Positions 27,825-36,176 of a DNA stretch of 64,000 nt are shown here, piece by piece (within the stretch, counting starts at the first letter, position 1; each line of letters starts with the position of its first letter). The position numbers were made by a program, and so were the translations under genes. Under the pieces are notes generated by a model. It was not told where the DNA came from. It searched no databases and saw nothing but the letters and a program-made list of their open reading frames with translations. The stretch spans positions 1 to 64,000 of the forward strand of contig JAKOSN010000181.1 in assembly GCA_029777335.1 (NCBI GenBank). The letters are read 5' to 3'. Source of the stretch: Planctomycetota bacterium (lineage in GTDB: Bacteria > Planctomycetota > Planctomycetia > Gemmatales > Gemmataceae).

Positions 27825-29138
27825 ATGCTGGCGAGCAAGCAACTGTCTTTTGCGGATATTCAAGAGCGCACATGTGATGTTGTGTCCACAGCGCTGGCAA
27901 TCCCCCGGGAGCGGGTTCAGCCGGGGTATTCGCTTGTTGAAGATCTGGGGGCGGACAGCCTTGATCTGATTGAGCTGGTGATGACCCTCGAGGAAACCTT
28001 CCAGGTCACTCTGCCGGAGGATCCTCCCAATGCGATCTACAAAACGGTTTTCACCCGCCACCCATTTCGCCTTTCGGACCTGGCCGAATTGGTCTACCTC
28101 CAACAGGGGAGTGGAACTCCGGTGCGAAGAGGGTGGCGCAGGGCGATTGCAAATCCGCTGTCGACACATGCGCTCCCCTTCACTCAACTCGGCGGGGTCT
28201 GGCAGCGCGACCAGCGCGGCTCTCAGTCCCTCCTTGAACGCGTTCGGACGGACGGGGCGGTCCCCCACTATCGCAGGCGATCCGATGGGATGCGGTGTGT
28301 GCTCCTTCCAGCCGCTACCGTTGAGATCGGTTGCCCCGCGCCCGAGTCGGATCCTGACGCACGCCCGAGACATTCCGTCTCGATCGACGCATTTCTGATC
28401 GATGCCGAGCCCGTCTCCACCACTGCCTATTGTCGCTTTCTCAACTCTGTAAAGGGTGTTTATCGGGCCACGCTACAGGAGTGGTTTCTCCTCGATCCCG
28501 AGGATGATCGCAATGCTCACGCGCTGGTGTTCTACACCGCAGCGGGATGGCAACCAGTGCGTGGCACGGAGCAGTGGCCAATGATCCTTGTCTCGTGGTA
28601 TGGAGCGAATGCCTACTCACTCTGGGCCAACAACAAGGATTGGCAAAACTATCGCGATGATCGTGATGCAACGGAGGGGAGTTACCTCCCGACCGAAGCG
28701 CAATGGGAATATGCCGCCCGCGGCGCGTGGTCCCAGGCCTTTCCCTGGGGAAACCAACCGGCGAACCACGAACTGGCACACTTTGGCCAGCATCAGCGCT
28801 CGGCGTCTTATTGTGCGGACACGCTTCCTCTGGTGGCGGTCCATGAACCGCTCGGCCTTTCTCCCTTTGGTCTGCATCACATGGCGGGGAATGTCTGGCA
28901 GTGGTGTCGTGACTGGTACCACCCCGCCTTTTATCAGACCGAGGCGGCCCGAGCACCGAATCCAGTGAATCGGCAACCTACGGGGATACGCAGCGAACGT
29001 GGGGGGAGCTGGGTGGGGCCTGCGCATCTGTGTCGCAGTTCGCATCGCCGCGGACGCCCCCCTCTGGTACGTGGACGATGTCTCGGTTTCCGGTGTGTCA
29101 GTTCCCTGAGCGATGCGCAGCGGTGCTCGCCTTGCTGA
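27825..29138 (+). CDS. Fusion of acyl carrier protein and SUMF1 (formylglycine-generating-enzyme-like) domain
   Basis: A 437-residue protein. Residues about 5-95 are an acyl carrier domain with the 4'-phosphopantetheine site GADSLDLIELVM (Ser 45), preceded by VQPGYSLVEDL. Residues about 165-430 are a SUMF1/FGE-like domain: AEPVSTTAYCRFLNSV, PMILVSWYGANAYSLWAN, YLPTEAQWEYAARGAW, PFGLHHMAGNVWQWCRDWY and RSERGGSWVGPAHLCRSSHR. Classical FGE has two active-site cysteines in the last motif; here one Cys fits and the second is missing, so true formylglycine synthesis is doubtful. It could modify a carrier-bound substrate (speculation). A 148-bp gap separates it from the glycosyltransferase. Confidence 0.85.
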   Translation: MLASKQLSFADIQERTCDVVSTALAIPRERVQPGYSLVEDLGADSLDLIELVMTLEETFQVTLPEDPPNAIYKTVFTRHPFRLSDLAELVYLQQGSGTPVRRGWRRAIANPLSTHALPFTQLGGVWQRDQRGSQSLLERVRTDGAVPHYRRRSDGMRCVLLPAATVEIGCPAPESDPDARPRHSVSIDAFLIDAEPVSTTAYCRFLNSVKGVYRATLQEWFLLDPEDDRNAHALVFYTAAGWQPVRGTEQWPMILVSWYGANAYSLWANNKDWQNYRDDRDATEGSYLPTEAQWEYAARGAWSQAFPWGNQPANHELAHFGQHQRSASYCADTLPLVAVHEPLGLSPFGLHHMAGNVWQWCRDWYHPAFYQTEAARAPNPVNRQPTGIRSERGGSWVGPAHLCRSSHRRGRPPLVRGRCLGFRCVSSLSDAQRCSPC

Positions 29139-29171: not shown

Positions 29172-29903
29172 CTATCCCCCGGCGCGCTTGACTCGGTAGC
29201 CGAGCGCTTCGAGTTCCACAATCAGTCGATCGCGCTGATCGCCCTGAATCTCGATGCGGCCCTCCTTGACCGTTCCACCCGTCCCGCAGCGATCCTTAAG
29301 TCGCGTGGCGAGGGCGAGTAGTTCTTGCTCGTTGAGGGGAAGGTCCGAGACAACCGTCACCCCCTTGCCGCGTCGCCCCTTTGTTTCCCGACCGACGCGC
29401 ACCACGGGAGCACTCTTCCCTCGATTATTCTGGAGCGAGCAGACGGCGGGGGGGACGGAAGGCTGCCGAGGAGTGCTCGCGCGGAGGGCAGTGATCAGCT
29501 GCCGCACTTCCGTGTCGATCAGAGGGAGAATGCCCGGGACATCGTCGATGTGCCAGTATTCGACCTTCTGCACAAAGGTGGGGTGCCGTTCCTGGACCAG
29601 GGGAAGATGTTCCTCGCGTTTGAGCGCGATTACACGATGGGCTCGCTCCAGATCGTCGCTGGTGACGGCAGCCGGGTAACGTGCAAAGTCGAGCAGCGCG
29701 CGAATCCCCTGGGCAAGGAGGGCGTCGATGGCGTCTGGCGCCATGGGACCCACATTGTTAACTCCCCGTTCCAGAGCGAGCGCACGCGAGGTTGCGCGCC
29801 AGGGCAACTCCTCGCGCAGGGCGAGTTCATTGAACAGGGTTTCGGCGAACCGACTGCGGTAGAAGTTCCCCGTGCAAAGGAACAGGATGGTCTGGTGGCT
29901 CAT
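29172..29903 (-). CDS. Fusion of LMW-phosphatase-like domain and SUI1/YciH translation factor domain
   Basis: From ATG 29903 (MSHQTILFLC) the protein has 243 residues. The first about 155 match low-molecular-weight protein tyrosine phosphatase/arsenate reductase-like proteins: FLCTGNFYRSRFAETLFNE contains the CX5R(S) catalytic P-loop, with HIDDVPG as a possible acid loop. After a linker, about 175-243 is a eIF1/SUI1 (YciH) domain with RRGKGVTVVSDLP, KDRCGTGGTVKEGRIEIQGDQ and a GYRVKRAGG end. Free-standing bacterial YciH proteins influence initiation-codon choice. ATG 29912 (MGTMSHQ) is an alternative start. A cyclic-di-GMP-I riboswitch lies about 275 bp upstream on the same strand. Confidence 0.88.
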   Translation of the reverse strand: MSHQTILFLCTGNFYRSRFAETLFNELALREELPWRATSRALALERGVNNVGPMAPDAIDALLAQGIRALLDFARYPAAVTSDDLERAHRVIALKREEHLPLVQERHPTFVQKVEYWHIDDVPGILPLIDTEVRQLITALRASTPRQPSVPPAVCSLQNNRGKSAPVVRVGRETKGRRGKGVTVVSDLPLNEQELLALATRLKDRCGTGGTVKEGRIEIQGDQRDRLIVELEALGYRVKRAGG

Positions 29904-30499
29904 GGTTCCCATCGTCGGCCATTTTCCGTCGAGCAGAACAGATCGGGACCGTCTCCCGTCGTCCCATGGGGTAGATCTTAGCAAGCGCAGGAAGGTAAGG
30001 GAGAGAAAAGGGGGTGGCGCGGAACTGGAGAGACGGAGGAGAGAAGGCGCAAAGAGAAAAAAGCAGAGCAAGTCTCACTGTAACCAGTCACCTGGTCCCT
30101 GGATCCAAGGCGAGCAGCAGCAGCCTTCTTGCCACTGGGATTGCTCGGGGACGGACGGGCTCTTCGCCTGAGTCCATCCCTTCGGCAGCCTGGCAACCAC
30201 CGGTCACAGCCAAGGCTGAAGGACCGAAGGCCCGATGGCTTTGCGCCCCCGTCTTTCGAGCGGGTTTGCCCTTTCGAGGAGGAAAGGCGTTGTGATCCAG
30301 GCACGACAGCGAGACTTGCTCCCGAGGATGCCACCAAAGCTGGCAGACTCGTTCGCTGACCAACTCTAGATCTTTTTCTGACCCGGAGCAAGCCAGCGCC
30401 CGTTCCTCTCCTGGATTTTGTCGCACTTCAGGTAAGATCGTCAAACTTTTACGCCGATAAGAAAAGGGGAGGGTCCGTGGTCCTATCAGGAGGACGTCG
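29904..30499. other. Divergent intergenic region holding the riboswitch
   Basis: 596 bases between the phosphatase-SUI1 gene (minus) and the four-repeat gene (plus). The minus strand holds the riboswitch at 30178-30287 and a pyrimidine-rich stretch near 29995-30065 with a T6 run. I could not find a convincing terminator stem as expression platform. Confidence 0.6.
30178..30287 (-). promoter_or_regulatory. Cyclic-di-GMP-I (GEMM) riboswitch aptamer
   Basis: Read on the minus strand the consensus blocks are in order: GGGCAAACC, a short stem with GAAA tetraloop (CTCGAAAGA), GGGGCGCAAAGCC, ATCGGGCCT, a P3 stem of variable sequence, then GACCGGTGGTTGCCAGG and CTGCCG. An outer stem CCTTTC (30287-30282) with GAAGGG (30183-30178) closes it. 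This is the GEMM-I arrangement that binds cyclic di-GMP, or in some variants cGAMP. The first minus-strand gene below it is the phosphatase-SUI1 fusion starting at 29903. Confidence 0.85.
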
Positions 30500-31855
30500 A
30501 TGAAAACCCTGCTTGGTGGCCTGCTGCTGATGTTCGCGGGCACGCTGCTCTCGACAACGCTCCTGGCCCAGATTCCCCAGTCGCCTGGCGTCCATACGCT
30601 GGAAGCGAGCCCGACCCGTGAACGGACCGCGCCGGTGGTGCCTGCGGTCGATCCCTCCTCCAGGCAGGTGGAGTCGGTGCGCACCTTCAATCCCTATCTG
30701 GTGAAGATGCAATGGCATGAAGGGCACTGGTTGATCATGGCGGAGAACGAGGTGCTCAAGGATTTCGGCAGCCGGAGCGAGGAAGCGCGTCAGGCGCTGA
30801 TGCTGATTCGCGATCTGCGTTTGAATCAGGTTACCACCATTGGCTGGCCGCGCCCCGTGATGGAATACTGGTTGAGCAACAACGAGGCGCCTCAGGGGCG
30901 GGCGTGGGGGATGCCGGCGCTCACCCTGGAAACCGGGGCACTCCAGGTCGATCAACTCGAAGGACAGTGGTATGTCCGTGAACCGGGGCGGTTGCTCCTG
31001 TGTTTTGGTCCTCACCAGGAGCAGGCGGAACGGGCGAAATCGATTCTGCAACAGTACCGCTTCAACCAGGTGGTCCTGATTGGTTCTCCCACCCCGTCGA
31101 TGATGGTGTTTCTGAAGCAAACCCTCCCCGGGTCGACACTGACAACCCATCGACCGCAACCCCTCCCTGTGCCGGTTCGTCCGCAGTGGTCGCAACCCAC
31201 GATCCCAGGGCAGGTGACTCGTGGGAGCAAGGGGCCCATGAGTTCGGCCCAGGTGGCGGCTCATGTGCCCACGCCGATCATCCCCCCGTTGCACGGCGGA
31301 CCTGGTTCCTGGGTGGAGGCAATGCCGATTCAGCGGACCTCGTATCAGCCACAATCCGCCCAGGATCCCAATGGGCGTGTGCTAACCCATGTCCAGACAG
31401 AGACGATTCCGCTCGACTGGCGCCAGGCCCGTGTGGTGCGCGATCGGGGCGAATGGAAGCTGATGTGCAACAATTATCAGGTGGCGAACTTTGCCGGCAA
31501 CGAGCAGGAGGCGCGTCAGGCCTTGGCGGCGATGCAGTTTTATCGCCTTACGGAACATCGTCGACTGGGCCAGGGAACGACGGGCCCCTCGTACTTCCTT
31601 TCTGCCGGTCAGGCGCCGCGCGGCACGATGATTGGTCTTCGTGGCGAATCGTTCCAACCCGAGGAACTGACCATTCGGGCCCAGGGAACGCACCACGTTC
31701 TGGCCCAGGGCGAACGTGTGATTCTTGATTGTGGTGCCAATGTCGAAAATGCACGGTTGATGCTACAAATCGTTCAGCAACAGCGTTTCGACACCCTCTG
31801 CCGAATCGGCTCGAATGAAGCCGGTTCCATGTTGCTGCTGGTGCGAGGCCACTAA
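30500..31855 (+). CDS. Secreted protein with four copies of an unnamed ~75-residue repeat
   Basis: A 451-residue protein with signal peptide MKTLLGGLLLMFAGTLLSTTLLA. It has four related segments at about 68-145, 146-215, 295-378 and 379-451. Each holds a W or V strand pair, a loop ending F-G or C-G, a helix such as EEARQALMLIRDLRLNQ or EQEARQALAAMQFYRL, and a final strand with IG or LG. Segments 2 and 3 are joined by a proline-rich linker (about 215-295). AGGAGG lies 7 bases before the ATG. I do not recognise the repeat; a periplasmic or surface structural role is plausible. Confidence 0.75.
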   Translation: MKTLLGGLLLMFAGTLLSTTLLAQIPQSPGVHTLEASPTRERTAPVVPAVDPSSRQVESVRTFNPYLVKMQWHEGHWLIMAENEVLKDFGSRSEEARQALMLIRDLRLNQVTTIGWPRPVMEYWLSNNEAPQGRAWGMPALTLETGALQVDQLEGQWYVREPGRLLLCFGPHQEQAERAKSILQQYRFNQVVLIGSPTPSMMVFLKQTLPGSTLTTHRPQPLPVPVRPQWSQPTIPGQVTRGSKGPMSSAQVAAHVPTPIIPPLHGGPGSWVEAMPIQRTSYQPQSAQDPNGRVLTHVQTETIPLDWRQARVVRDRGEWKLMCNNYQVANFAGNEQEARQALAAMQFYRLTEHRRLGQGTTGPSYFLSAGQAPRGTMIGLRGESFQPEELTIRAQGTHHVLAQGERVILDCGANVENARLMLQIVQQQRFDTLCRIGSNEAGSMLLLVRGH

Positions 31856-36081: not shown

Positions 36082-36176
36082 GGAAGTGTTTGCACCGCTG
36101 GTGCGGGCCCTGGTCTTCAAAACCAGTGGAGGGCTTGAAAAAAGTCTTCAGTGGGTTCGATTCCCATACACTTCCG
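36082..36176 (+). tRNA. selC: tRNA-Sec (UCA anticodon)
   Basis: A 95-nt tRNA. The acceptor stem GGAAGTGT/ACACTTCC has 8 bp, as in bacterial selenocysteine tRNAs. The D stem is extended (GCACC/GGTGC), the anticodon arm is CTGGT-CTTCAAA-ACCAG with anticodon TCA, the variable arm is long (AGGGCTT paired with AAGTCTT, allowing G-U pairs), and the T arm is TGGG-TTCGATT-CCCA. No encoded CCA follows. It decodes UGA as selenocysteine, needing SelA, SelB and SelD encoded elsewhere; none is in the window. The minus-strand haem gene ends 8 bases away. Confidence 0.95.

Follow-up and report, generated by a model that had tools for sequence, protein, structure and literature searches.

In the window, the whole 64,000-nt stretch of DNA that was analysed, a c-di-GMP-I aptamer on the minus strand has a gene on either side. 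The downstream gene, 29903–29172 (−), was proposed in a sequence-only reading of this DNA to be a fusion of a phosphatase and a SUI1 domain, and the ATG at 29903 and both Pfam domains were confirmed (LMWPc 29.7 bits, SUI1 56.5 bits, both above cut-off). Many relatives have LMWPc-SUI1 fusions, and in about ten other genomes of the family and order (loci L036–L046, L062, L063) this one is conserved over its whole length, with differing surroundings. Beyond it, a single ORF at 27825–29138 (+) combines a phosphopantetheine carrier domain with an FGE-sulfatase domain and has a low codon-usage score. The gene upstream of the aptamer, 30500–31855 (+), is divergent and belongs to a protein family without a Pfam match and with an internal repeat; in five relatives its homologues adjoin the RNA described below on the downstream side, with another orientation than here. 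The window of this planctomycete genome also carries a selenocysteine tRNA gene (36082–36175, +, 71.9 bits).

A cmscan of the whole window matched the full RF01051 (c-di-GMP-I) model at 30280–30181 (−) with 55.3 bits (E = 4.4e-8), the gathering cut-off being 35 bits. The GEMM-I aptamer that the sequence-only reading had put at 30178–30287 on the minus strand was thereby upheld. No c-di-GMP-I matches were obtained from the 14 control genomes. The ligand-contact segments of the window aptamer were GAAAGGGCAAACC at 30275–30263, CGCAAAGCC at 30245–30237 and CTGCCGAA from 30188 onward (−). The contact positions G20, A47 and C92, in Vc2 numbering, were occupied by G, A and C, and these were kept in 24 relatives. 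Inspection of the GNRA tetraloop and the 11-nt receptor in P3 showed a GAAA loop and, from mismatches in the RF01051 alignment, a receptor region departing from the consensus. The variant model RF03167 (c-di-GMP-I-GGC) gave 56.9 bits against its own cut-off of 59, and the apparent hallmark of that variant is missing, since the window has CGCAAAG where the variant consensus CGCGAAG replaces A47 by G; a variant aptamer with another ligand was ruled out by this A and by the score. The residues at the contact positions match those of a c-di-GMP receptor. The genome of the window encodes GGDEF proteins.

The aptamer is flanked on both sides by the arms of a 16-nt inverted repeat, with six U directly 3' of the second arm, and the fold of the RNA strand is more stable than those of its shuffles by 4 standard deviations. 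The same layout, with other arm sequences, recurred among the 103 aptamer matches found in the window's genome and the related genomes searched. Aligning 24 such loci gave a common order of elements (P0, P1, P1b, aptamer, P5, P6 and P7), according to which the aptamer is one domain of a predicted RNA of about 300 nt, unannotated, conserved, structured and self-contained:

30057–30357 (−): complete predicted stand-alone RNA; covariance-model match at 30354–30058, 256 bits
30323–30351 (−): P0, 5' hairpin with conserved loop consensus GUUUUGG; two-sided changes in 11/11 pairs, 92.8% of cells paired
30306–30322 (−): P1 closing stem, 5' arm, from the inverted repeat; two-sided changes in 16/17 pairs
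30294–30301 (−): P1b, 5' arm (CCTGGATC); two-sided changes in 7/8 pairs
30269–30289 (−): near-invariant CGCCTTTCNTCCTCGAAAGGG, a possible ligand-free hairpin over the aptamer 5' edge that includes G20, from conservation and the hairpin in the folded full RNA
30181–30280 (−): c-di-GMP-I (GEMM-I) aptamer; RF01051, 55.3 bits
30148–30180 (−): P5 hairpin GGGATGGAC...GTCCGTCCC, whose 5' strand is able to pair with aptamer P1; 91% of cells paired, in most members part of the minimum-energy fold
30111–30147 (−): P6 hairpin CGAGCA...TGCTCG; two-sided changes in 6/6 pairs, 73.6% of cells paired
30098–30105 (−): P1b, 3' arm (GATCCAGG), from the alignment pairing test
30083–30096 (−): P7 hairpin ACCAG-GTGA-CTGGT; two-sided changes in 5/5 pairs
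30065–30081 (−): P1 closing stem, 3' arm, from the inverted repeat and the alignment pairing test
30057–30062 (−): U6 run, a terminator-like end beyond the closing stem; at least 5 T in 7 nt in 27/49 relatives, control 5%
29172–29903 (−): LMWPc-SUI1 fusion gene, probably no cis target; Pfam domains, not beside the RNA in relatives

The whole aptamer-bearing domain is enclosed by the 17-bp closing stem P1. The 24 loci were aligned by sequence, and the structure was drawn with the window sequence as a guide before it was tested. Taken without the aptamer, the extended fold includes 57 pairs, for which 84.9% of the cells were paired, compared with 68.5% in shuffles and 36–46% when the arms were slid. 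Two-sided substitutions were present in 47 of these pairs, and none of the 500 shuffles matched any of the measures. Unprompted, RNAalifold recovered P0, the outer part of P1, P5, P7 and the aptamer, and did not recover P1b, P6 and the inner part of P1. Searches of the extension for another known RNA family gave chance-level Rfam scores only (L20 leader 19.2 vs 58.7 bits, Streptomyces-metK 12.4 vs 44.2 bits). A group I catalytic core was not matched in Rfam at gathering score, nor in a permissive scan of 29900–30500. A CsrA-type decoy seemed unlikely, the GGA motifs seen being within stems. The 275-nt spacer which the earlier reading had counted between aptamer and gene is arithmetically right; it is not an empty leader, being made up largely of the 3' part of this larger folded RNA.

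Upstream of the RNA lies a predicted promoter of its own:

30386–30391 (−): −35 element TTGCTC, from the TTGCNN-N17-TANNNT pattern in relatives
30363–30368 (−): −10 element TAGAGT after a 17-nt spacer; predicted start at about 30357/30356

The TTGCNN-N17-TANNNT pattern was present upstream of the RNA in 39 of the 46 non-redundant loci, 36 with exactly 17 nt, against 0.29 expected in shuffles. A conserved AGCRAACG follows the promoter at the predicted transcription start. At the 3' end, a U-rich tail was found in 27 of 49 loci and in 5% of nearby control positions. The U-run was weak or absent in the remaining 22, which include notably one genus, and the 3' end is therefore less certain in these. 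A simple terminator scan made no call at the end of the RNA because it was restricted to loops of 3–8 nt. From comparison of the genomes, the conserved promoter and the U-rich end point to the RNA locus being an independent transcription unit.

The covariance model of the RNA, 294 positions long, found 50 full-length copies in 50 of the 95 Gemmataceae genomes, one per genome, with scores of 113–272 bits (256 in the window), and one partial second copy. The next matches in these genomes, at most 78 bits, were essentially lone aptamers. One genome of the sister family carried a copy, and outside Gemmataceae and the sister family nothing exceeded 82 bits when 249 genomes of the class were searched with the model, which leaves a gap between full copies (at least 113 bits) and lone aptamers (at most 82 bits). 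The matching contigs were labelled Gemmataceae and Gemmata, a few with other genus names. The inverted repeat around the aptamer would also suit an element, mobile or derived from a repeat, that is bounded by terminal inverted repeats and carries the aptamer by chance. Such an element would hardly be expected to have a single copy per genome, compensatory changes across the arms, a structured interior and a fixed promoter; phages gave no match, and one plasmid matched over a 50-nt stretch only. The probability of this explanation is close to nil, and copy number and covariation rule out an inverted-repeat artefact for practical purposes.

The genes next to the RNA were compared with strands assigned by a home-made codon-usage caller. 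The downstream gene was on the same strand in 33 loci and convergent in 15, with no strand called in three, so that the caller made about 70% of them co-directional, where one half would be expected in the absence of any link. The convergent genes confirmed by protein families encode uracil phosphoribosyltransferase (UPRTase), DAHP synthase, glycosyltransferase 9, PemK-like and DUF1501 proteins. The co-directional genes are equally unrelated to one another, and MFS is found among the downstream genes. With ordinary aptamers of the same genomes and the same caller, a co-directional gene came next in 46 of 52 cases, many of the aptamers lying 5–14 nt before the start, and the difference in co-directionality from the new RNA had a Fisher P of 0.026.

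These counts bear on whether the RNA could be a cis riboswitch with a very long expression platform, in which the closing stem and U-run would form a c-di-GMP-controlled terminator and read-through would feed whichever gene lies downstream, here LMWPc-SUI1. The 33-to-15 excess of co-directional genes, to which the window itself belongs, is the main remaining point for it, and the c-di-GMP-I riboswitch Bc1 of Bacillus thuringiensis, with its long expression platform and two terminators, offers a precedent (PMC11218506). It is nevertheless unlikely, as the downstream genes are unrelated among genomes and convergent in 15 of the 48 called loci, the terminator stem would need to enclose about 220 nt, and LMWPc-SUI1 never adjoins the RNA elsewhere. 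The conserved co-directional target expected of a cis riboswitch thus appears to be absent.

The narrower model of the sequence-only reading was a species-specific switch by which c-di-GMP would set the level of LMWPc-SUI1 and so be linked to phospho-signalling and start-codon choice. The gene is indeed on the same strand, and no other gene was called between its ATG and the end of the closing stem and U6 at 30057, 154 nt ahead. This arrangement was found only in the window's genome among those examined, and the RNA is conserved without the gene: in relatives with both, the two are on separate contigs or lie over 1.5 Mb from each other, and none of twelve other LMWPc-SUI1 loci had the RNA in front. 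LMWPc-SUI1 was therefore ruled out as a conserved cis target, and with the RNA ending before the ATG, the gene lying apart elsewhere and the neighbours varying, the model is very improbable; what stands of the earlier interpretation is the aptamer call, and c-di-GMP control of the phosphatase-SUI1 level is not supported, though read-through into the gene may still take place in this one genome. Even less probable is antisense-type regulation, in which the RNA or its read-through would disturb a convergent or neighbouring gene. In a genome survey c-di-GMP riboswitches were the most antisense-prone (PMC9943018), and 15 of the 48 called downstream genes are convergent, but these are mutually unrelated and the mechanism is inapplicable in the window, where the downstream gene is co-directional.

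The genome of the window has four further c-di-GMP-I matches. Two of them lie near Flp-type pilin genes (L001 1501–1581 and L002 1501–1575), which are the expected kind of c-di-GMP target, and that in L001 is followed by a run of Flp-type pilin genes and a prepilin-peptidase-like gene. Of the other two, one is followed immediately by a terminator and one lies a few bases ahead of an ATG. Another conserved aptamer type, type B, was observed at L066 6552–6720 (contig G000:C322) and in about 17 relatives; its c-di-GMP-I aptamer is succeeded by GGGATGGACGGGACCCGTAAGTA...TTGG and this by a terminator-like hairpin, which usually lies no more than about 60 nt away. As the genes that follow it show no relation to one another and are convergent in 10 of the 17 called loci, type B may be a second stand-alone c-di-GMP RNA, composed of aptamer and terminator. 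A large set of aptamers in relatives, type C (e.g. L109, L110 and L117), ends 5–14 nt before a co-directional start codon, which suggests direct translational control in this group.

The new RNA resembles RF01051 riboswitches in having the same aptamer, above the gathering score and with the G20, A47 and C92 residues, and ordinary RF01051 expression platforms in that its P1 strand is shared with a competing downstream hairpin. Unlike RF01051 riboswitches, it has a closed multibranch fold, its own promoter, a terminator-like end and no fixed downstream gene, and the RF01051 model spans only about 100 of its approximately 300 nt. Riboswitch-bearing trans RNAs are known in Listeria, namely Rli55 and SreA/SreB; Rli55 carries a distinct ANTAR decoy, the synthesis of which its riboswitch terminates, SreA is a terminated leader but continues to control the operon it belongs to, and the Rli55 and SreA types sense vitamin B12 or SAM (PMC8079631). 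With these the new RNA would share a ligand aptamer in an RNA working away from its own locus, whereas, unlike in Rli55 and SreA, its aptamer lies within a single closed fold and there is no conserved cis operon. A c-di-GMP-II aptamer occurs together with a group I ribozyme (PMC10043782), likewise a c-di-GMP aptamer joined to further structured RNA, but of another aptamer class, and the new RNA has no group I intron match. ModT (the raiA motif) is a conserved structured RNA that was first read as a cis riboswitch and then shown to act in trans; it has no known aptamer, c-di-GMP binding being merely suggested (PMC11706538), and the new RNA differs from it in phyla and structure. In the open-licence literature, no account was found of a stand-alone RNA that contains a c-di-GMP aptamer, nor of such a planctomycete RNA. 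The RNA thus appears to be a known aptamer in a new architecture, for which the following function is proposed.

Being self-contained, with its own promoter and present once per genome in about half of the family, the RNA is probably a free c-di-GMP-sensing RNA and not the switch of the next gene. The best explanation, with a probability of about 0.7, is that the locus encodes a stand-alone noncoding RNA, about 300 nt long, which is transcribed from a promoter of its own and ends in a stem followed by a U-run; its pairings would be switched by the ligand, and it would act in trans. The comparative evidence supports the conservation of the RNA as a unit, together with its structure, promoter and copy number and the lack of a fixed cis gene; c-di-GMP binding, the pairing switch, trans action and its targets are what we infer.

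In the proposed switch, the long stem would close a multibranched structure in which the aptamer forms one arm. Without ligand, P5 (GGGAUGGAC:GUCCGUCCC) would be held, together with a CCUUUC:GAAAGG hairpin over the aptamer 5' edge. If c-di-GMP is caught during transcription, GGAU would pair with AUCC of aptamer P1 instead of P5, and this pairing would free the near-invariant C/U-rich strand (C)GUCCGUCCCC. By deciding which of the C/U-rich segments becomes accessible, the ligand would gate a trans action, either pairing with G-rich mRNA sites or protein binding. The proposal derives from complementarity, GGAU being common to P5 and aptamer P1 and able to pair with AUCC upstream or (G/A)UCC downstream, with one mismatched pair in the window P1 (CCUCC against GGAUG). 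In most members the lowest-energy fold contains P5, and the P1-paired form lies 11–16 kcal/mol above ground in most, so that switching would have to be kinetic, the ligand acting co-transcriptionally before the P5 3' strand exists. This strand, GUCCGUCCC, is better conserved than the P5 5' strand, and the CGCCUUUCAUCCUC segment ahead of the aptamer is also near-invariant. An alternative pairing of GUCCC with a downstream GGGAC was dropped as an output because the downstream strand is unconserved except for P1b pairing.

A riboswitch is nearly always interpreted as the leader of the gene that follows it. If the stand-alone reading is true, riboswitches without a sensible downstream gene, some of them called antisense-acting, may belong to unrecognised noncoding RNAs, and with the 294-position model and the boundaries the reading is directly testable. 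The broader view, for which the odds seem slightly better than even, is that the family-wide single-copy RNA of Gemmataceae would be a c-di-GMP receptor with gated trans activity, accompanied by a second, shorter stand-alone type of aptamer plus terminator. c-di-GMP would then control a trans-acting RNA directly, across a bacterial family, and its signalling would have an RNA-to-RNA (or RNA-to-protein) branch in which no cis gene takes part.
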